Source: Rhodothermales bacterium
Lineage (GTDB): Bacteria; Bacteroidota; Rhodothermia; Rhodothermales; JANQRZ01
Reading direction: 5' to 3'
Assembly: GCA_028284265.1 (NCBI GenBank)
Contig: JANQRZ010000007.1
Span: 62,001-126,000, forward strand
Length of the DNA: 64,000 nucleotides
Position 1 is the first letter of the stretch. Every line of letters begins with the position of its first letter. This document shows, in pieces, positions 16,932 through 34,798 of the stretch. The position numbers and the translations under genes were made by a program. Under the pieces are notes generated by a model, which saw nothing but the letters and a program-made list of their open reading frames with translations, made no database searches and was not told the origin of the DNA.

Positions 16932-17022
16932 GGGAGAGCGGGTGAATGGGGAAGGGCCGGGGCGCAATCTAACGCGGCGAGTGGTTTGGAAGCGCAGGTG
17001 CGCTGGGTCGGATCGTATGACT

Positions 17023-17044
17023 GTTATTGTATTGTAAAGTTTAT
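17023..17044. other. AT-rich patch before the DnaA-box cluster
   Basis: GTTATTGTATTGTAAAGTTT followed by AT is one of the most AT-rich stretches in this GC-rich spacer. It also resembles a degenerate copy of the CCGTTATTGCAA repeat. Confidence 0.35.
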
Positions 17045-17090
17045 AACCGAAAGCGCGGTGGGAGGAGGTCTCATGACGGTGGACTGTTAT

Positions 17091-17099
17091 TGTGGATAA
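17091..17099 (-). promoter_or_regulatory. DnaA box (TTATCCACA)
   Basis: Exact consensus DnaA box on the minus strand (TGTGGATAA on +). First of three same-orientation boxes within 217 bp. Confidence 0.6.
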
Positions 17100-17106
17100 C
17101 TATTCG

Positions 17107-17137
17107 TTTGAACCGAGGGGTGGCCTGTGTATCTTCA
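17107..17137 (+). promoter_or_regulatory. Candidate promoter, TTTG-N19-TATCTTCA
   Basis: TTTG at 17107 and TATCTTCA at 17130 fit the Bacteroidota TTG / TAnnTTTG arrangement with one mismatch. It would start a transcript near 17143, running through the structured region to the terminator at 18075. An alternative sigma70-like pair is TTGACT at 17324 with TTAATT 17 nt later. Confidence 0.35.
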
Positions 17138-17275
17138 GAGCACCTCATGCTGCCAGAGAAGAGGTCGTCCAATCGGACCGTACCTCACAGTCGCGTCACT
17201 GAAAAGCCTGACCCCAGTGGTTGGGCTTTTCGGCCCAGGGCGGAAATGGTCCGGCGATACCCCGTGCCGAGAGGG

Positions 17276-17284
17276 TGTGGATAA
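17276..17284 (-). promoter_or_regulatory. DnaA box (TTATCCACA)
   Basis: Second exact consensus DnaA box, same orientation as the one at 17091. Confidence 0.6.
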
Positions 17285-17298
17285 TTCTCTCGATAAGT

Positions 17299-17307
17299 TG
17301 TGCATAA
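17299..17307 (-). promoter_or_regulatory. DnaA box (TTATGCACA)
   Basis: Third box, matching TTATNCACA, 14 bp from the second and in the same orientation. Confidence 0.55.
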
Positions 17308-17355
17308 CTCGGCGGGGCGTGGTCTTGACTTCACGGTTTCTACGCAGTTAATTGG

Positions 17356-18075
17356 ACGCAGTGCTTTCGGGCACACGCCGCCAACGAGGCTTGCCTCGGA
17401 CGCAGCGGCTGCCTCCGGAGCTTGCTCCGAGCAGCGACGTTCCTTGACGCGACTGAAGTTCTCCAGGCTGCATGAGGTCGCCGGTATGGTTCCGGCGAGG
17501 ACACGACTTCTTCGATACGCCTAGTCTGACTTGTCCTTGCGACAAGCGCGCACCCTCGCGGTGAGCGAACGACCAGAAACGACGAAGGATGTCAGATAAG
17601 TCCAGCGCCCCGAGTAGGCCGGTTCAACCGGACGAAAGAACGCGATGGCAGATGCCTCGCCGACGTGATGGGCTTACGGCGTGACTCGCTCACGACGCAG
17701 GCCGTTCACATCCATCCCGGAGAAAATGTGTCTGGGCGGCAGTTGATTGAACGTGGTACTTCGGTACCGCACCAGTTGACAACAGCACAGGGCGACTACG
17801 TCGTGCTACGCTGTGTGCCGCAGCATGTGGACCACGTTTACCGAGATGCTCTGCATCTCATCAAACAGGTGGCCGCTGCAAGAGCCAGCCCGCCCTTTTG
17901 TCCGGCGTTGGTTTGGGAGGAGGTCTGACGACCAGAACCCCGAAGCGACCCGTTCCGACGTATGTCGGTTTCCGGCCATGCGTCGGAGGATGCTTTCGAG
18001 CTGACGAAAGAAGGGCTGTCGCGTCAGGAACTACTTTCAGCGGGTCGGTGCCTCGGGTACCGGCCCGCTTTTTTT
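17356..18075 (+). ncRNA. Large structured noncoding RNA candidate, family unknown
   Basis: No convincing protein frame exists here, but the + strand has a dense series of strong hairpins. Examples are GTGCT-TTCG-GGCAC (17361), CGAGG-CTTG-CCTCG (17385), CGGAG-CTTG-CTCCG (17416), TCGCCGG/CCGGCGA (17478), CTTGTC/GACAAG (17530), CCGG-TTCAA-CCGG (17619), CGTGA-CTCGC-TCACG (17680), GTGGTAC-TTCG-GTACCGC (17753), GAGATGC-TCT-GCATCTC (17843) and CTGACG/CGTCAG (18001). CUUG and UUCG tetraloops are hallmarks of selected RNA structure. The series ends at an intrinsic terminator (18039-18075). The start is uncertain: about 17143 or about 17356, giving 720-930 nt. I found no RNase P signature (GAGGAAAGUCC) and no tmRNA tag, so those identities are not supported. 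Confidence 0.6.
18039..18075 (+). terminator. Intrinsic terminator of the structured RNA
   Basis: An 11-bp stem, AGCGGGTCGGT with ACCGGCCCGCT (one G-U pair), encloses a 9-nt loop and runs into seven T. It lies 68 bp before the pssA start, so it ends an upstream transcript rather than pssA. Confidence 0.88.
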
Positions 18076-18142
18076 GGGGAGCTATGTGCGAGGTGCGTCG
18101 AGGAGCGTCCGTCACGGCAAATGCCGGTTCGTATCTTTCAGC

Positions 18143-19015
18143 ATGGACGATCCCTCCGCTCCGCAGCCGCTCGAATCCCCGCCCGGTTCGCCTTCCGGGT
18201 CGCGCCCGCGCGGGCCGATGCTCCGTCAGCGGCGGCGGGTGATCAGGGGCGTGCCCCCCGTCGCCGTGCCAAGTTTCTTCACGCTGATGAACCTGCTCAG
18301 TGGGTTCTTCTCGATCATCCAAACCTCGGCAGGCAACCTCGAAGCGGCGGCGTGGCTCGTCGTCCTCGCGGCGTTCTTCGACCTGCTCGATGGGTTTATG
18401 GCGCGCCTCGCGCACGTCTCCTCGGACTTCGGGCTGGAGCTTGACTCGCTCAGCGATGTGGTTTCGTTCGGGGTGGCCCCGTCGTTCCTGCTTTACGAAT
18501 TCGGTCTCGACCAGCTCGGACCGATGTGGGGTGGACTCTTGGCGAGCCTACCTGCGCTCTTCGGGGCCGTTCGTCTCGCCCGGTTCAACACGATGACGAC
18601 CTCGGACGAGAAGCAGGGTTATTTCACCGGTTTGCCGATCCCGGCGCAGGCGGGGACGGTCGTCGTGTTCATCCTCACCTTCGCGGATTCGTCATGGTTC
18701 GATGTGCTGGAGCGCCGCCAGATTTCGGTGCTCATCACGCTTGTGCTCGTGCTGTCGGCGCTGATGGTGTCGCCGGTCCGCTTTCAGGCACTGCCGCAGC
18801 CGACTCGGGCAAATCTTCGGGCTTATCCCTACCGGTTCTTAGCATTCGGCCTCGGTCTGTTGCTGACGCTCGTGGGCGAGGTCGTCTTCCGTGCGGGTGA
18901 GGTCGGCCTTCTCATCTCGGCGGTCGTGTATCTTGCCCTCGGAATCGGTGGGGCGATTCGCTGGGCGATTCGTGCTGCCTCTGATCCCGACAACGACCCT
19001 TCGTCTGACTTCTGA
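18143..19015 (+). CDS. pssA: CDP-diacylglycerol-serine O-phosphatidyltransferase
   Basis: 290 residues from the ATG at 18143. A Pro/Arg-rich cytoplasmic head (1-40) is followed by a CDP-alcohol phosphatidyltransferase domain. The DGxxAR-x8-G-x3-D-x3-D signature is intact: FDLLDGFMARLAHVSSDFG, then LELDSLSDVVSFG. Six or more membrane helices are present. It makes phosphatidylserine, the precursor of phosphatidylethanolamine. A TATCTTTC box 12 bp before the ATG suggests a promoter with a very short leader, independent of the upstream RNA. purS and clpS follow closely on the same strand. Confidence 0.95.
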   Translation: MDDPSAPQPLESPPGSPSGSRPRGPMLRQRRRVIRGVPPVAVPSFFTLMNLLSGFFSIIQTSAGNLEAAAWLVVLAAFFDLLDGFMARLAHVSSDFGLELDSLSDVVSFGVAPSFLLYEFGLDQLGPMWGGLLASLPALFGAVRLARFNTMTTSDEKQGYFTGLPIPAQAGTVVVFILTFADSSWFDVLERRQISVLITLVLVLSALMVSPVRFQALPQPTRANLRAYPYRFLAFGLGLLLTLVGEVVFRAGEVGLLISAVVYLALGIGGAIRWAIRAASDPDNDPSSDF

Positions 19016-27400: not shown

Positions 27401-28546
27401 TCAATACTTCGGCATCGACGGGTCGATCTCGTCGCTCCACGCGAGCACGCCACCCTTCAGGTTGACCGCACCCTTGAAGCCCGCATCGTGCAGGATCTGT
27501 ACAGCCTTGGCCGAGCGTCCCCCCGAACGGCAATGCACAACAAAGCCCTCTTCGCGGTGCTCCTCGATCTCGTCCAGCCGGTTGGGCAGTTCATCCAGCG
27601 GAATGAGGGTGCCGTCGAGGTTGGCGATGCCGAACTCGTCGGGCTTCCGCACGTCGAGAATGAACGGGCGCTCGCCGCGGTCGAGTCGGTCTTTGAGTTC
27701 GCGGACGGTGATTTCGGGGACAGCGCTCATGGGGGCGTCGGTTGGGGAGGCGCAGAACGCCTCGTAGTCGATAAGGTGGGTGATCGTGGGGTGGGTACCG
27801 CAGACCGGGCACTCGGGATTCTTCGGAACCGTCAGCGACTGAAACTGCATCCCCAGTGAATCAACCAGCAGCAGTTGGCCGATGATCGGCTCGCCGATGC
27901 CGAGCACCAGCTTCAGCACTTCGGTCGCTTGGATCGTCCCGACGAGGCCCGGCAGCACGCCGAGTACGCCACCTTCCGCGCAGTCGGGGACAGCATCAGG
28001 CGGCGGCGGACGGTCGAACAGGCAGCGGTAGCATGGCCCATCGTCGGTGCAAAATACAGCGGCCTGCCCCTCGAAGCGGAAGATGGAGCCGTAGACGTTC
28101 GGGGTGCCCGTGAGTACGCAGGCATCGTTCACGAGGTAGCGCGTGGCAAAGTTGTCGCTCCCATCGGCAATCACATCGTAGCCTCGGATGATATCGAGCG
28201 CGTTGTCGCTCGTGAGTCGGGTAGGGTGGGGGACGAGGTCAATATGCGGGTTGAGGTCGCGCAGCCGTTCCATTGCCGCTTCGAGCTTCGGGCGTCCCGC
28301 GTCACGACTCCCGTAGAGCACTTGGCGTTGGAGGTTGGTTTCATCCACCCGGTCGAACTCCACGATACCAAGCCGTCCGATGCCCGCCGCGGCAAGATAG
28401 AGGGCGAGCGGCGACCCCAGCCCGCCTGCGCCGATCAGCAGAACGGATGCGTGCTTGAGCGCTTCCTGTCCGGCCAGTCCGACCTGCGGAAGCGTGAGGT
28501 GGCGGCTGTAGCGCTGGCGTTCGTTTGGGGTAAGCAGCGTATCCAA
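27401..28546 (-). CDS. moeB: MoeB/ThiF-type adenylyltransferase with C-terminal rhodanese domain
   Basis: 381 residues. The E1-like domain (1-250) has the ATP-binding GAGGLGSPLALYLAAAG (about 38-54), DGSDNFATRYLVNDAC, and the zinc Cys pairs CYRC and CPVC. A rhodanese domain occupies ~275-381 with the active-site loop VVHCRSGGRSA (catalytic Cys). Such enzymes adenylate the C-terminal Gly-Gly of MoaD or ThiS and may pass sulfur from the rhodanese Cys. moaD and moaE lie 8 kb away in the same window, so molybdopterin synthesis is the likely pathway. The rhodanese fusion would allow sulfur transfer as well. Confidence 0.93.
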   Translation of the reverse strand: MDTLLTPNERQRYSRHLTLPQVGLAGQEALKHASVLLIGAGGLGSPLALYLAAAGIGRLGIVEFDRVDETNLQRQVLYGSRDAGRPKLEAAMERLRDLNPHIDLVPHPTRLTSDNALDIIRGYDVIADGSDNFATRYLVNDACVLTGTPNVYGSIFRFEGQAAVFCTDDGPCYRCLFDRPPPPDAVPDCAEGGVLGVLPGLVGTIQATEVLKLVLGIGEPIIGQLLLVDSLGMQFQSLTVPKNPECPVCGTHPTITHLIDYEAFCASPTDAPMSAVPEITVRELKDRLDRGERPFILDVRKPDEFGIANLDGTLIPLDELPNRLDEIEEHREEGFVVHCRSGGRSAKAVQILHDAGFKGAVNLKGGVLAWSDEIDPSMPKY

Positions 28547-28551
28547 TTTAT

Positions 28552-28563
28552 CCGTTATTGCAA
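28552..28563 (-). repeat. 12-bp repeat TTGCAATAACGG (copy 2)
   Basis: On the minus strand it provides the last Leu-Gln-stop of the lycopene cyclase gene (GAT TTG CAA TAA), then CGG. It lies 5 bp before the moeB start. Confidence 0.7.
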
Positions 28564-29277
28564 ATCAAAAACTTCGTTTTTGGGGAGAAACATCATAAGC
28601 CCTTGGACCACCATCAGATTCGTAACGAGGAAGAACACAGCTTCTTCGATGGGGAGGCCTAGCGGATCGAAGTTGAGACTGTAGGTGTCCGAGATATCCC
28701 AGATACCCAACCCGATGGCAATTCGGTCGGCGATCCACAGGTAGACGGTCGGCACAGCCACACCGAGAAACCACTGCCGTCGATACGTCCAGAAGGTCGA
28801 TGCTGACAGCCACGCCATCCCGGCGAGCACAGGGCCTGCCCACGCAAGGATAAGACCCATATATAACGTACGAGTACCGAAGAGTAGATAGACACCGACT
28901 AAGCTTACGGCAATCCAGAATGCCACCATGACGACGCGTAGATTAGATGGCTGAATCGGCTCATGATCTTTGATGCGAGACTTAATATTCATCAGCCATA
29001 GTCCAGTCAGAATAGGTTGCAATAGAAAGAATAAATACTCTTCTATGGGTACATACCCAATCGTTGCCAGCACGCGGTCCTCTCCGTAGTACCAGACACC
29101 TCGGTAAACGAGGTAGTTGTCCCATGCGGTCGTGTAGACGAACGCGATCAGGGCGAGCAGCATGATCCATCCCCACGCCCGCTTCGCACCGATGCCGCCC
29201 ATCGGCTTGGGCTGAAGGAGCGCCAGCGCCGCGATGGGCGGCAGGATAAAAACGAGGTGGAACGCTAGGTAGGTCAA
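28555..29277 (-). CDS. CrtYcd-type lycopene cyclase
   Basis: 240 residues, seven or so membrane helices. It carries two internal repeats with the cyclase motif P-x-[15 protein letters not shown] (around residue 76) and [13 protein letters not shown] (around 210). This is the fused form of the CrtYc/CrtYd cyclase. It cyclises lycopene-type ends to beta-ionone rings. The start is TTG (29277), overlapping the TGA stop of the upstream oxidoreductase gene, so the two are translationally coupled. Its last codons come from the TTGCAATAACGG repeat. Codon use is clearly less GC-rich than in the neighbours. Confidence 0.9.
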
Positions 29278-30812
29278 TAGATCTTCTTTTGGAGGTCTTG
29301 CAGGATGACGCGAGCAGCATTGCGCCCTGAGGCTCCCATGATGCCGCCGCCCGGATGGGTGCTAGCTCCCGTGAGGTAAAGACCATCGACATGACTGCGA
29401 TACCCGCTCATCGTCAGGGACGGGCGCATCATAAACATCTGGTCTAGGCTCATCTCTAGGTGCATCACATTGCCTCGAAATAGCCCTAATTCGCGCTCTA
29501 GCCACAACGGATGCTGAAAAAGCTGACCGACGATCTTATCTCGTGTTCCCGGAGCATACTGCTCGAAGGTGTCCAGAATCCGGTCGGCTACCTCGTCTTC
29601 AATGTCATCCCACGACTGTCCGTTCGCCAGCTCGTAGGGATAGTACTGCGCCCAGAGCCAGAGGACTTCGCCACCGGGAGGAGCTAGCGAATCATCCACC
29701 GCACTGAAGGTCATCGCAACGATCGGTGGGTCTTGAGCAGGTTCGCCTCGCAGGTAGTCGGCGTAGGCACTCATAATCTGCTGACGATCCCGACAGATGA
29801 GTTGCAGAGCAATCCGTGCGTCGTTGCCCGGGTGGGCTTTGTAACGTACCGGTTCGGAGAGAGCCAGCCTGAGTATGGCTCCAAACCCGTTACCTACGCG
29901 GGGATTTGCAGATAGAGGTCGTTGATCTTCCGGTAGAAGATGGTGGAGTGTCTCCAGTATGTGGGTTCCTGACAGGACACAGCGTGACATGTATATATCA
30001 CCATCAACTCGAACACCAACAGCTCTTTTGTTTTCGACGAGGATATCTTCTACTGGTGCTGATGTGAATACGGCTCCGCCATGTGCCTCTATATGCGCCC
30101 TGAGTGCCTGCGTGAGCATACCCGATCCGCCTTTAGGCCGGGCAATTCCGCCTTCATGATAGAGCGGGTGCCACAGTAAGAAAGGAGCAGATATCGGCTC
30201 AGTCGGTGGTGGCCCTGACTGGGCGGCCATCCATACGAGAGGGGCCTTGATCTTCTCTTCAGTGAAGTACTGGTCGACAACCTCACCGTAAGGTTGTAAG
30301 ATCGTGCCTAGGGCTTGCTGCCAATCCATCTTGGCTGACGGACCAAACATCATCTTCTTTCCTAGCTGGAGCGGCCCCGGCGTAGAGAGGAAAATGTCCC
30401 GCACCGTTTGAGAAAACGGGAGCCAGTCTTGGATGAATTGATGATAAGCTTCGCCCTGTCCCGGAAACTTGGATTCGATGTGATCGGCTGTGCGAGTTAC
30501 GCTTCGGTAGAAAAACATGCTGTCGTCATCAGGAGAAGGGGAGAAGAACAGCGGGTCTAGCTCAATATAGTCGAGTCCATATCTCTCAATTTTTAGCTCC
30601 TCAATGATCGGTGTCAGCCTGATTAAGATGTGAGCACTTCCTCCAAGATCAAACTGATATCCAGACACGATCTCTTTGGTAGATACAGCACCACCGACTA
30701 TGTCTCGTCTCTCAAAAACACCTACTCGATATCCAGCTTGCGCAAGGTAGGCCGCCGATACAAGCGCATTGTGCCCGGCACCGATCACAATTACGTCATA
30801 GTCATAATGCAT
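29274..30812 (-). CDS. CrtI/CrtO-family FAD-dependent carotenoid oxidoreductase
   Basis: 512 residues. The N-terminal Rossmann FAD motif is [21 protein letters not shown] (residues ~8-28), followed by [10 protein letters not shown]. The C-terminus has the family signature [23 protein letters not shown]. Length and motifs fit the CrtI/CrtO/PYROXD2 superfamily. A C-4 beta-carotene ketolase (CrtO) is more likely than a desaturase because it is paired with a cyclase, but this is inference. It is co-transcribed with the cyclase and probably contributes to a keto-carotenoid or xanthorhodopsin-antenna type pigment. Lower-GC codon use than the flanking genes. Confidence 0.85.
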
Positions 30813-30824
30813 AGATAGTAAAAT

Positions 30825-30836
30825 CTGTTATTGCAA
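30825..30836 (-). repeat. 12-bp repeat, variant TTGCAATAACAG (copy 3)
   Basis: Lies in the 35-bp spacer between the recombinase stop and the carotenoid oxidoreductase start. One base differs from TTGCAATAACGG. Confidence 0.6.
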
Positions 30837-30847
30837 GGTGGAATGCC

Positions 30848-31816
30848 TTACAGCTTGATGTAGTCTGCTGCGCTGTCTTTGAGCTTGTCGCGCTGGTGGA
30901 TATAGGTCATGGTAGTCTCGATTCGCTTATGCCGGGCGTGCGTTTGGACCTGTTGGAGGGAGGCCCCGGACTCAATGGCGAGGGTGCATCCGGTGTGGCG
31001 AAGCGTATGGGCACCGATGGTTGTGTCGAGACCAGCCCGCCGTGCTGTTCGTCTCACCACCTCATAGATAGCTGCTGGCGACATCCGGTTTCCGCGACTG
31101 CTATTCTTGCTTAAAGATCGCCAGAAAGGCCCTTTCTCGATACCGTAGTGTTCCTGCATGGTGTTCAGCGACTCGACGAGGTGGGCCGGAATCTTTACGT
31201 ACTCACCTGTACCACCCTTGGTGCGCGGTAAGTCGAGCACCCAGTAGGGGCCTGCGGAGCGAATGTGTCTCACATCCATGCCCGCAGCTTCGGAGCGCCG
31301 CAGGGTGCAGTGCAACAGAACGCTGAGAAGCGTTCTGTCGCGCAGCGCAGCTTCTCCATTGTGGCCTGTTGCTTCGATTAGGAGACGTGCTTGCTCCTTC
31401 GTAAGAACTGTTATTGCATTGTCTGATCTTCTATTTCGATCAACCCGGCGAATAACATGACGGTCTGCCGGATTTGTGTCAACAAGGCCGAGTGCAATAA
31501 GCCAACTGTAAAACCCGCGGATAGCTGATATCTTACGCTGTAGAGTACTAGGCCGGAGACCAGCTTCTTGAAGCTTCTTTATAAAGGCATTCACATGAAC
31601 GAACGACAGCATGCGCGCCATGCGTAGAGTCACAAAATCTGCATCGAATAAGTGAACCAAATCGCTCCGATAGGCGCGGCGCGTCTGGTCTCGGTCAAAT
31701 CGGAGCAAGTAGACCGGAAGCAAGTCTGTATCGAGCGCCCGACCATCAGGAACGGTTATATTCTCGCCTGAGGCCGAAATGACGGATGGAAGTACGCTTT
31801 GTCTGGGTGAATCCAC
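30848..31816 (-). CDS. Tyrosine recombinase (XerC/D-like integrase)
   Basis: 322 residues. An N-terminal SAM-like core-binding domain (~30-125) is followed by a complete catalytic domain: Arg173 in TLRRSEAAGM, Lys200 in RTKGGTGEY, His270 and Arg273 in HTLRHTG, His296 in ARHKRIETT, and the nucleophile Tyr305 in MTYIH. All catalytic residues are present, so it should be active. It is not next to a phage or transposon module. It is flanked by carotenoid genes and a ThiD-like gene and lies in the centre of a cluster of 12-bp repeats, one of them inside its own coding region. It could be a stand-alone Xer or an integrase of a small mobile unit. Confidence 0.9.
   Translation of the reverse strand: MDSPRQSVLPSVISASGENITVPDGRALDTDLLPVYLLRFDRDQTRRAYRSDLVHLFDADFVTLRMARMLSFVHVNAFIKKLQEAGLRPSTLQRKISAIRGFYSWLIALGLVDTNPADRHVIRRVDRNRRSDNAITVLTKEQARLLIEATGHNGEAALRDRTLLSVLLHCTLRRSEAAGMDVRHIRSAGPYWVLDLPRTKGGTGEYVKIPAHLVESLNTMQEHYGIEKGPFWRSLSKNSSRGNRMSPAAIYEVVRRTARRAGLDTTIGAHTLRHTGCTLAIESGASLQQVQTHARHKRIETTMTYIHQRDKLKDSAADYIKL
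31407..31418 (-). repeat. 12-bp repeat, partial TGCAATAACAGT (copy 4), inside the recombinase gene
   Basis: Encodes Asn-Ala-Ile-Thr-Val in the recombinase. It matches the first ten-odd bases of the repeat family (TGCAATAAC). Confidence 0.5.
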
Positions 31817-31906
31817 GGTTCTTGGGGCCTCTCGTGACCGATGTAGATGTTAACCCTGATAATAAGGCTTATCACAGGTATAAGTCAATCCACGACCCTC
31901 GAAACC

Positions 31907-32749
31907 ATGTCGAGTGCAGTCTTCAATTTCTGCCCCATCGTCGCCGGCGCATTGTACCCCGCCGTAGAACGCGGGCTAGCTGCTGACCTCGCTGCTGTGC
32001 GAGCGCTGGGCGGTTTGGGTTATCCGGTTTGCACATCGCTCGTGATGGCTGGACATGGCGTTGTCACTGACGCGACCGACGTACCAGAAGACACCATTCG
32101 TGCCCAGTTGGAGCATATCGCACTGACCGTCAAGCCAACAGCGCTCAAGGTTGGCGTACTCTCGTCTCATGCGGCCGCTGATACCGTGCTTCGCTTTGCT
32201 GACAAATTCGCGGGGCCGGTGTTGCTTGACATTCAGCTCACTGGTCCCCACGGCGAGACGGTACTGACTCCCCGTGGTATTGATGTCGTGCTGGAGCATT
32301 TGGGCGTTCCCGACCTAGTGGTGATAGATCATTCTGACGCTGAGCCGCTCAGTGGTGGCGAGATCCACTCACTTGATGATGCCCAGGTGGCTGCCCAGCG
32401 TATTATCCGCCGTGGTGCACGCGCCGTAGTGATAAAGTGTGCTACGCTGCCCGCGCGTCACTTTGAGCAGAACGGAGTGCCTCCCGACGACACGGTGTTC
32501 AATGCCGACCTGTACTTCGATGGTCAAGAGTTCGCTCTTTTCGAGGCCCCTCACCTCCCTAGAGGGCACCGGGATGGCATCTCCAGTACCTTTGCCGTCG
32601 TCGCGCTCAAAGGCCTCGCCGACGGCTTGCCCGCTGAGAAGGCACTACAGCAGGCAAAGCGTTTCGTAACAGAGGGCCTTCGTGCAACCGAGCAACAAGG
32701 TAAGACGGTGCCATTCCGTTTCACCGAGAGCATGACCTCGTTACAATAA
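31907..32749 (+). CDS. Divergent ThiD-like HMP(-P) kinase
   Basis: 280 residues from the ATG at 31907. The overall pattern is that of ThiD in the ribokinase superfamily: LAADLAAVRALGGLGYPVCTSLVMAGHGVV, seen as ADLAAVRALGG and VCTSLVMAGHGV, then IRAQLEHIALTVKPTALKVGVLSS. The C-terminal helix is LADGLPAEKALQQAKRFVTEGL. However, the N-terminal SDSGGGAGIQ-type substrate loop is replaced by CPIVAGALYPAV. The C-terminal catalytic GTGC loop reads DGISSTF, without Cys. The true substrate may therefore differ from HMP-phosphate. It ends in Leu-Gln-stop, supplied by the repeat, and is followed by a LacI-type regulator. Confidence 0.7.
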   Translation: MSSAVFNFCPIVAGALYPAVERGLAADLAAVRALGGLGYPVCTSLVMAGHGVVTDATDVPEDTIRAQLEHIALTVKPTALKVGVLSSHAAADTVLRFADKFAGPVLLDIQLTGPHGETVLTPRGIDVVLEHLGVPDLVVIDHSDAEPLSGGEIHSLDDAQVAAQRIIRRGARAVVIKCATLPARHFEQNGVPPDDTVFNADLYFDGQEFALFEAPHLPRGHRDGISSTFAVVALKGLADGLPAEKALQQAKRFVTEGLRATEQQGKTVPFRFTESMTSLQ

Positions 32750-32752
32750 CGG
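32741..32752 (+). repeat. 12-bp repeat, variant TTACAATAACGG (copy 5)
   Basis: Supplies Leu-Gln-stop (TTA CAA TAA) of the ThiD-like gene, in the + orientation. One base differs from the consensus. Confidence 0.65.
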
Positions 32753-32788
32753 CTCTGCTGTTCCACTCATCCTGTCCCTACAAAGGTG

Positions 32789-33790
32789 ATGAAGCACACG
32801 ATCTATGAGGTAGCTGCTGAGGCTGGCGTCGCAATCTCCACCGTATCGCGCGTTCTCAACGGCTCCAGCGAGGTGTCCGATGCGACTCGGGAGCGAGTGC
32901 AGGCCGCCATCGACAAGCTTCAGTTCCGCCCGCAACGCACGGCCCGGACCCTTGCACAGCAGCAGACACATTCACTCGCTGTCGCTATGCCGTCCTTCAC
33001 CTCCCTGTTCTTCGTAGAACTCCTGAAGGGTGTGAAAGACGAACTCCGCGAGCACGACATCGACCTGTTGATGTGCAACCTAGGGTCCGTCGCCCCTTAT
33101 CAGACGCTGGAGCGGTTCTTGGACCAAGGAGCCGTAGACGCCCTAATGCTCACCTCCCTACCGGTGGATCATGATCTTCAGAGGGAGCTAGAAAGGCTCC
33201 GTGCACCTGTTGTTTTGGTTGGCACCCAAGCCGATTCCTTCGATTCGTTTTATTGGGATGAAGCAGCAGGCATCGAGCGCGCCGTGCGACACCTAACGGA
33301 TCAAGGACATAAGCGCATCGGCCTCATCGCCGCCCATCCCGGAAGCCACAACGCCGATCAGCGCCTCGCTGGATACCGTAGTGGAATAGAGGCGGCGGGC
33401 TTGCCTTTCGATCCAGCGTTGGTGGTGATGGGTGAAACGACGAAGCACGCCGGTTTTAGCGAAGAGGCAGGCGTAGAAGCCATGCAGAAGTTGCTCGCGT
33501 TGGACGAACCCATCACGGCGGTTTGTGCGTCGTCCGATGTCCAGGCGTATGGCGCTTGGTCGGCACTTCGAGACGCCGGGCGCCGCGTGCCAGAAGACAT
33601 CGCGCTTGTCGGATACAATAACCTGAAGCTTAGTCACTACCTCGGTCTCACCTCCGTAGACCTGAGGATGCACGATGTGGGGTGCCGAGCCACTCGGCTC
33701 TTGCTGGACCGGATGAAAGGACCTGCCAGCAAGCCGTTCGTGGATGCCATGACCCCCGACCTCATTGTCCGAGGCAGCAGCACAGCCTGA
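32789..33790 (+). CDS. LacI-family transcriptional regulator
   Basis: 333 residues from the ATG at 32789. The N-terminal HTH is textbook LacI: TIYEVAAEAGVAISTVSRVLNGSSEVSDATRERV, visible in parts IYEVAAEAGVAISTVSRVLN and SDATRERV. A hinge and periplasmic-binding-like effector domain follow, with HLTDQGHKRIGLIAAHPGSHNADQRLAGYRSG and a C-terminal IALVGYNNLKLS. No sugar-use operon is adjacent. It lies between the ThiD-like gene and purC, so it may control one of them. The effector is unknown. LacI regulators of purine type (PurR) are a possibility because purC follows, but no PurR box was identified. Confidence 0.92.
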   Translation: MKHTIYEVAAEAGVAISTVSRVLNGSSEVSDATRERVQAAIDKLQFRPQRTARTLAQQQTHSLAVAMPSFTSLFFVELLKGVKDELREHDIDLLMCNLGSVAPYQTLERFLDQGAVDALMLTSLPVDHDLQRELERLRAPVVLVGTQADSFDSFYWDEAAGIERAVRHLTDQGHKRIGLIAAHPGSHNADQRLAGYRSGIEAAGLPFDPALVVMGETTKHAGFSEEAGVEAMQKLLALDEPITAVCASSDVQAYGAWSALRDAGRRVPEDIALVGYNNLKLSHYLGLTSVDLRMHDVGCRATRLLLDRMKGPASKPFVDAMTPDLIVRGSSTA

Positions 33791-33823
33791 GCAATTCCAC
33801 CGCCCTAAATCTTGCACCCTATC

Positions 33824-34798
33824 ATGCCTTCCGGCCTACTTGACGATCGGTTGTATCGTCAACTCGACCACTGCCTCGTCGATACGCACTTCGACGATCT
33901 CGGCGAGCGCTATCGAGGCAAGGTGCGTGACACCTATCGCACCGCCGACGGTCGCCTGATTCTCGTCACGACCGACCGCATCTCGGCCTTCGATCACATT
34001 CTATCCCATCCTATCCCGTTCAAAGGGCAGGTACTGAATCAACTCGCCGCGCACTTCTTCAACAAGACGCGAGACATCGTCCCGAACCACGTCCTCTCGG
34101 TTCCCGACCCCAACGTGACCGTCGCCCTAGCGTGCGAGTCAATCCCGGTTGAGTTTGTGGTGCGAGGCTACCTCGCGGGCCATGCTTGGCGTGTCTACCA
34201 CGACGGCGGGCGCGAGCTGTGCGGCGTGCCGCTCCCCGATGGGCTTCGCCAGAACAGCAGCCTCCCGGCTCCCATTCTAACCCCCGCCACGAAAGCTGCC
34301 GAAGGGCACGACGAGGACATCTCGCGTGACGAGATCATCAAGCGCGGTTTACTAGATGCCGACCTCTTCGACCGAATCGCGGATTTCGCCCAGCGCCTGT
34401 TTGTGCGCGGCACCGAACTAGCCGCCGAGCGCGGGCTGATCCTCGTCGACACCAAGTACGAGTTTGGCTTAGACCACGAAGGCGAGGTGGTACTGATCGA
34501 CGAGGTGCATACCCCCGACTCCTCGCGGTATTTCTATGCCGAGGGCTACGAACAGCGTCTCGAACGCAACGAGCCTCAGCGCCAGCTTTCCAAGGAGTTC
34601 GTGCGCGAATGGCTGATGGACCAAGGGTTTCAGGGCAAAGACGGCCAGTCGATGCCCCACCTCCCCGACGACTTCCGCGTTCTTGCCGCGAAGCGCTACA
34701 TCGAACTGTTCGAGACCGTCACCGGCAAAGCCTTTGAGCCAGACTCGCACTTGGAACCAGAAACTAGGATTCGTGAGGCCTTATCAGCTGTTGCGTAA
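33824..34798 (+). CDS. purC: Phosphoribosylaminoimidazole-succinocarboxamide synthase
   Basis: 324 residues from the ATG at 33824. A TTG 12 bp upstream is also in frame but gives no better start. SAICAR synthetase signatures are present: RGKVRDTYRTADGRLILVTTDRISAFD (parts RGKVRDTY, TDRISAFDHIL), FVVRGYLAGHAWRVY, PILTPATKAAEGHDEDIS, LILVDTKYEFGLDHEGEVVLIDEVHTPDSSRY (parts DTKYEFGL, LIDEVHTPDSSRY). It catalyses step 7 of de novo purine synthesis. The gene stands alone, downstream of the LacI regulator by 33 bp. Confidence 0.96.
   Translation: MPSGLLDDRLYRQLDHCLVDTHFDDLGERYRGKVRDTYRTADGRLILVTTDRISAFDHILSHPIPFKGQVLNQLAAHFFNKTRDIVPNHVLSVPDPNVTVALACESIPVEFVVRGYLAGHAWRVYHDGGRELCGVPLPDGLRQNSSLPAPILTPATKAAEGHDEDISRDEIIKRGLLDADLFDRIADFAQRLFVRGTELAAERGLILVDTKYEFGLDHEGEVVLIDEVHTPDSSRYFYAEGYEQRLERNEPQRQLSKEFVREWLMDQGFQGKDGQSMPHLPDDFRVLAAKRYIELFETVTGKAFEPDSHLEPETRIREALSAVA

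Follow-up and report, generated by a model that had tools for sequence, protein, structure and literature searches.

The locus described here lies in the window (the whole 64,000-nucleotide stretch of Rhodothermales DNA that was analysed) and carries two predicted non-coding RNAs on the plus strand, each behind its own predicted promoter. The smaller one, RNA1 (~92 nt, 17142-17233), was predicted from its fold and its homologues, and consists of a segment called site B (17142-17154), a hairpin (17161-17186), a second segment called site A (17188-17203), and a terminator that begins at 17199. The larger one, RNA2 (~717 nt, 17360-18076), was predicted from its fold, its homologues and its indels to be a large structured non-coding RNA. 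Its conserved core (17439-17480) contains the 5' strand of a stem, P1, together with the stretches to which sites A and B of RNA1 are complementary; the 3' strand of P1 (18018-18031) was assigned by fold and homologues, and the intrinsic terminator (18038-18076) by sequence and fold. The predicted RNA2 promoter (17325-17353) was recognized by its sequence and by homologues, with TTGACT at 17325-17330 and TTAATT at 17348-17353 separated by a 17-bp spacer. Upstream of this promoter are three DnaA boxes on the minus strand: TTATCCACA at 17276-17284, a degenerate box at 17288-17296 that reads TCTCGATAA on the plus strand with two mismatches to TGTGGATAA, and TTATGCACA at 17299-17307. They occupy array positions -49, -37 and -26, respectively, with all array offsets counted from the first base of the -35 hexamer. 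The gene to the right, named pssA in the initial annotation, was confirmed by a CDP-OH_P_transf profile match (18143-19015) and was the sole right-hand gene tested.

The exact DnaA boxes, TTATCCACA at 17091 and 17276 and TTATGCACA at 17299, all on the minus strand, were the only TTATNCACA matches in the 64-kb window, where 0.22 were expected, and none of 100 dinucleotide shuffles of the window reached three. The three same-orientation boxes first reported from this DNA were therefore exact and beyond chance. In the 3.69-Mb draft genome, exact TTATNCACA occurred 23 times, and the window cluster was the sole place with at least two of them inside 1 kb; the spacing of the two exact boxes at 17276 and 17299 was also unique in the genome. 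The AT-rich patch reported beside the boxes was present but modest, the 100 bp from 17013 being 59% AT and only the fifth highest in the window. The degenerate third member of the array, TCTCGATAA at 17288-17296, had been overlooked, as had the presence of two mutually complementary RNAs and the position of box 17091 outside the conserved array.

The cluster had been proposed as a possible replication origin, to be recognized by a minimum of cumulative GC skew and a genome-wide peak of DnaA boxes, and to be refuted by an equally dense cluster elsewhere. Such a chromosomal origin, at which DnaA would be loaded on boxes beside an AT-rich unwinding element, would suit the shared orientation of the boxes, the modestly AT-rich patch adjoining them and the singular pairing of exact TTATNCACA within 1 kb. 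However, the cumulative GC skew of the contig itself rose to a maximum at ~80-100 kb and then dropped, so that the boxes (79.1-79.3 kb) were located near a maximum, and the minus-to-plus switch (minimum) of an oriC was not found at the site. The count of boxes gave a divided answer, since the cluster was the densest of the genome for exact boxes but not once one mismatch was allowed. Upstream of dnaA, which is outside the window as first stated and was found on another contig (C23:319.6 kb), five boxes carrying no more than one mismatch were found in one orientation within ~244 bp (C23:317913-318156), compared with three in the window cluster; this comparison of densities covered the window and 15 sampled stretches. 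Because a denser cluster lies upstream of dnaA, the origin is refuted in the terms first set for it. The positions of homologous loci also argued against an origin in the three relatives with readable skew (the skew of a fourth, G013, was too noisy and was left out). In G009 the locus was at 0.193 Mb and the skew switched between the samples at 1.25 and 1.50 Mb, ~1.1 Mb apart; in G012 the locus at 2.779 Mb was 0.2-0.4 Mb from a switch in the 2.40-2.60 Mb interval; and in G025 the locus at 1.121 Mb was 0.58 Mb from the switch at ~0.54 Mb, which fell between two dnaA genes. The array, moreover, holds a constant distance to the -35 hexamer. An origin was rejected on the basis of the skew, the cluster upstream of dnaA and the location of the homologues: the window cluster is probably not one, and we consider that reading highly improbable. 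Clusters of this kind may misdirect origin finders in draft genomes. As a separate observation, the DnaA C-terminal domain was matched twice in 14 of 20 Rhodothermales genomes, and two of the second matches were fragments at contig edges.

The RNA2 region is predicted to specify a structured non-coding RNA. Its predicted fold had an energy of -329.2 kcal/mol (z -6.6), with the 5' core pairing with the 3' end to form stem P1. When the region was compared with the congener, all 16 indels (16/16) were not multiples of three, which shows the absence of coding constraint expected for a non-coding RNA, and a coding gene was rejected for this reason. Compensatory changes in P1 were found in L153 and L154, and no convincing P1 partner was found in L006, L109, L117, L122, L145, L147, L148 and L151; L128, which meets a contig end, and L137 were left out of this comparison. 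Outside the core, RNA2 was variable, from ~400 to >1000 nt, and the core complementary to RNA1 was the best-conserved stretch seen. In genus g32 (L006 and L145), ~350 nt of repeated CTTCGG hairpins were found between the RNA2 promoter and the core. The covariance models of Rfam gave no match in the window stretch or in 20 homologous loci. Among known RNAs, tmRNA or tRNA was rejected since the window holds just one tRNA-Leu, RNase P sits elsewhere in the genome, and 6S RNA (RF00013) was not found in the genome. The downstream genes differed between loci and were glycosyltransferase-, HAD-, psd- or pssA-like (named by eye, except the profile-tested pssA of the window), so that cis-regulation of a single neighbour was rejected as the main role of RNA2.

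The locus recurs within the order. When the boxes and the gene-free DNA downstream of them were used as a query, 25 of 60 genomes matched, the source genome included, mostly through a 40-nt core (17439-17480). The matching loci share one order of parts: a pair of CYGTTATTG elements, a promoter, the small RNA and its terminator, a TGTGNAT array, TTGAC-N17-TATAAT, and a long RNA that starts close to the core and finishes with a terminator. With a sequence model, the RNA2 core was detected in 56 of 114 Rhodothermales genomes, always as a single copy, and in 21 of the 394 genomes of a phylum sample, where every match was within Rhodothermales. Among named genomes, a pattern search gave 29 matches, including Roseithermus sacchariphilus, a Rubricoccaceae bacterium and metagenome-assembled genomes of Rhodothermales or Rhodothermia, with the remaining matches labelled Bacteroidetes, Bacteroidota, or uncultured or unnamed bacteria. 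Viral contigs gave no match (0), and a phage element was rejected for this reason. Public RNA-seq data exist for Roseithermus sacchariphilus RA (SRX6798561-66; PMC7409140).

The array was regular both within itself and relative to the RNA2 promoter. On the promoter strand of the window it reads TGTGGATAA at -49, TCTCGATAA at -37 and TGTGCATAA at -26, that is, two good boxes and one poor box, separated by 3 and 2 bp and repeating with a period of 11/12 bp, and its end is 17 bp from the -35 hexamer. The 12- and 11-bp steps place the boxes 3 and 2 bp apart and thus match the spacing preferred by E. coli DnaA, which favours boxes paired at a gap of 2 or 3 bp (PMC11317965). Array statistics were obtained for 52 of the 56 loci, the other four being three f13 loci missed by the first pattern and one with a short upstream region; the promoter windows of L002, L003, L006, L011 and L145 were placed by hand. 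Most homologues had a TTGAC-N17-TATAAT-like RNA2 promoter. TGTG was present at -26/-27 in 36/52 loci, at -37/-38 in 30/52 and at -49/-50 in 16/52, with mononucleotide-shuffle means of 0.64, 0.68 and 0.72, respectively. Exact TTATNCACA occurred 24 times upstream of RNA2, in 20 of the 52 loci, versus 0.15 in mononucleotide-shuffled sequences, and boxes with at most one mismatch were found 91 times in total and in 51 of the 52 upstream regions, versus 3.5. Pairs of boxes with 2-3-bp gaps at a fixed promoter offset, the arrangement expected of a DnaA-controlled promoter, were therefore found, with some loci lacking one box or another. The weakest arrays were those of L007 and L009, with one strict TGTG box, and of the g15 loci, with mainly one TGTG near -25. 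The proposal of the initial annotation that the boxes form a DnaA-controlled site and regulate the adjacent RNA thus gained strong comparative support, at the level of sequence, from an array held at fixed offsets from the -35 hexamer across the order.

Conserved tandem boxes in non-coding DNA away from the origin also recall datA, DARS1 and DARS2 of E. coli (PMC12371093), and the array could likewise be a DNA element that titrates, inactivates or reactivates DnaA, with the RNA genes being secondary. Action through DNA only, however, would need no phasing, whereas the array was locked at -26/-37/-49 to the promoter and the RNA in most of the 52 loci; unlike datA and the DARS sites, it has a fixed promoter geometry and an RNA gene downstream. 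This explanation is therefore quite unlikely. Compared with the DnaA-bound promoters of E. coli, where boxes are also paired at 2 or 3 bp (PMC11317965), the loci here have up to three or four boxes in fixed phase, and these precede a non-coding RNA.

The TGTGNAT array may also be bound by a protein other than DnaA, as many of its members are degenerate beyond TGTGNA. The 24 exact TTATNCACA in 20 of the 52 loci and a spacing that suits DnaA speak against this, as does a control search of 60 genomes for the strict triple array. This search gave 13 matches spread over 11 genomes. Ten were at the RNA2 promoter, two belonged to a single tandem repeat of G043, and the last, in G054, immediately precedes a dnaA gene and has a TTGAC hexamer behind it. 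The same triple array before dnaA in G054 supports DnaA as the protein that would bind the array, although it is no proof, and binding by another protein appears unlikely. The tandem repeat of G043 (TGTGGATCACAC; C321:52244-52285, L205) is directly upstream of a miaA-like gene, named by eye.

RNA1 has a predicted promoter of its own (17108-17135, plus strand), recognized by sequence and by homologous positions, with TTG at 17108-17110 and TATCTT at 17130-17135; it resembles the Bacteroidota-type consensus TTG...TAnnTTTG. Upstream of it, a conserved pair of CTGTTATTG elements on the plus strand was found at 17021-17029 (copy 1) and 17084-17092 (copy 2). When the CYGTTATTG pair was compared at 23 loci in the range L002-L026, its spacing fell into classes of 54-55 bp (8 loci), 62-65 bp (11) and 73-76 bp (4), which are one helical turn apart. 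Among the 60 genomes, 23 of 26 matches to the pair were at the RNA1/RNA2 locus, and the reversed control pattern gave 4 matches. The pair upstream of RNA1 is accordingly described as a candidate two-site operator. Of the three remaining pairs, two precede genes that by eye are gyrA/parC-like and DUF393-like, and the third is close to a pyrG-like gene, also named by eye. The third exact box of the window, TTATCCACA at 17091-17099 on the minus strand, overlaps copy 2 of the element and is outside the conserved array. It was common to the congener (L003) and absent from the next genus of the family (L004), and it was rejected as an array member because of the overlap and because it was otherwise present only in the congener. 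This genus-only addition may let DnaA act on the RNA1 promoter there, or it may be due to chance.

The predicted fold of RNA1 (z -3.0) contains the hairpin and the terminator, and leaves the two conserved segments mostly unpaired. RNA1 was present in all 56 genomes with RNA2: a pattern search detected it at 51 of the 56 loci, two more were found by reading and confirmed with an RNA1 model, and the same model located it on a different contig from RNA2 in G102 and ~2.2 kb from RNA2 in G015 and G055. In the 8 tested genomes without RNA2, the model gave no match (8/8). In G015 and in genus g15 (L154, 1041-2881), the two RNAs are separated by an ATPase-like gene and another ORF, an insert that by eye recalls a two-gene defence module.

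The conserved segments of the two RNAs were complementary to each other. Site A of RNA1 (17188-17203) is complementary to RNA2 17440-17455, and site B (17142-17154) to RNA2 17466-17478. Across the distinct RNA1/RNA2 combinations of 51 loci, 192 of 210 possible pairs were formed at site A, compared with a mean of 183.2 when partners were shuffled, and 224 of 252 were formed at site B, compared with 216.2; these values were reached by 1/5000 and 16/5000 shuffles, respectively, in a procedure that permutes related sequences and ignores their relatedness. Paired changes were found in L022 (GCGATGGAG with CTCCGTCGC), in L005 (GCGACTGAAG with CTTCAGTCGC), and in L140 and L141 (GCATGAAGC with GCTTCATGC). 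A third contact, site C, was found in most of the order, where ATGGGCA of RNA1 matches a TGCCCAT hairpin loop of RNA2. Both partners had changed together to ATGAGC/GCTCAT in L025 and L153, to CGTGGA/TCCACG in L140 and L141, and to CATGGACA/TGTCCATG in L146. The motif was missing from both RNAs in the family of the window and in L006, L009 and L145; in L011 the loop was present in RNA2 but RNA1 showed no clear motif, L025 has an additional TGCCCAT elsewhere in RNA2, and the site C pattern misplaced the motif in L010 and L132. An untargeted test of site C gave a moderate excess, with a mean longest RNA1-tail match of 7.12 nt versus 5.63 nt for shuffled tails, and 30 of 50 loci reached 7 nt. Since this result is modest and some of the best matches land elsewhere, single short matches of the RNA1 tail prove little. 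When the window pieces were cofolded, the predicted energy was -59.1 kcal/mol, compared with -14.0 and -10.1 kcal/mol when each piece was taken by itself. The two marks of a dedicated RNA pair, co-occurrence (56/56 genomes with RNA2, 0/8 without) and covarying complementarity between separate RNAs, were both found.

Complementarity of this kind could also mean that RNA2 is mainly a sponge or decoy, with RNA1 as the working regulator of other targets; that the RNA1-complementary core is the best-conserved part of RNA2, while the remainder varies from ~400 to >1000 nt, fits such a role. A sponge, however, has no need for hundreds of structured nucleotides, a closing stem and a conserved loop, which makes it a rather unlikely main function.

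With a probability of roughly two in three, we regard the locus as the region that controls a pair of non-coding RNAs specific to Rhodothermales, of which the large member is controlled by DnaA and the small member is its dedicated partner. We infer transcription, DnaA binding, activation and pairing in the cell from the sequence, conservation, geometry and complementarity observed. DnaA would bind the three boxes of the array (-49, -37 and -26) and most likely activate the transcription of RNA2. Its role as an activator is a guess from position, as the array is upstream of the promoter and not over it; the region upstream of -35 is the usual place for activation. The RNA2 product, ~717 nt, would be closed by the 5'-3' stem P1. 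RNA1, made from its own promoter with a separate conserved two-site element, would pair with the 5' core of RNA2 through sites A and B; in most of the order, though outside the family of the window, it would also pair with the loop of an RNA2 hairpin (site C). Since site A and P1 share the same RNA2 strand, binding of RNA1 and closure of P1 should be mutually exclusive; RNA1 would open P1 and form a junction with the core, as favoured by the predicted cofold energy. In the likeliest mode of action, DnaA would set the supply of RNA2, and RNA1 would decide between a closed RNA2 and an open complex of two RNAs. A switch coupled to replication, in which active DnaA turns on the large RNA and the small RNA sets its closed or open state, is a tentative extension that we hold to be possible, with the odds somewhat against it. 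If true, the initiator would have an RNA-based output in these bacteria, distinct from both the origin and protein regulators.

The predicted RNA2 resembles OLE, ROOL and GOLLD in being hundreds of nucleotides long, strongly folded and free-standing. Unlike them, it has no Rfam match and a dedicated second RNA instead of self-assembly, and it is chromosomal, order-wide and single-copy, with none in viral contigs and with a DnaA-box promoter. ColE1 RNA I and RNA II form a plasmid copy-control pair. The antisense RNAII of pMV158 is also a plasmid copy-control RNA (PMC4485353). As in such pairs, the small RNA of the present locus is complementary to the 5' portion of the longer one, in a setting related to replication. 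The locus differs in that RNA1 is upstream on the same strand rather than antisense from the same DNA, lies as far as 2.2 kb from RNA2 in two genomes, and is not at the chromosomal origin. ArrA of B. subtilis is antisense to the dnaA leader, and its production is reported to be inhibited by DnaA (PMC12112137). RNA2 would likewise be a non-coding RNA with DnaA-dependent production, but it is large and distant from dnaA, and the array is upstream of its promoter. In the large ornate RNAs, the strands of a complex are joined by kissing loops (PMC12286853); the layout of the RNA1/RNA2 locus resembles neither these nor ArrA. No description of the RNA1/RNA2 pair was found in the open-licence literature, and a study of small RNAs from a halite community (PMC7002113) gave no help on it; the pair is apparently undescribed. 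Large structured bacterial RNAs are few, and most are without known control. RNA2 offers two rare handles: DnaA is its likely upstream regulator, and it has a likely partner RNA for which contact sites can be named. These make its role directly testable in cultured Rhodothermales. Elsewhere in the window, positions 28001-34000 had a GC content of 0.53-0.59, compared with 0.64 in the rest, and are perhaps an acquired island.
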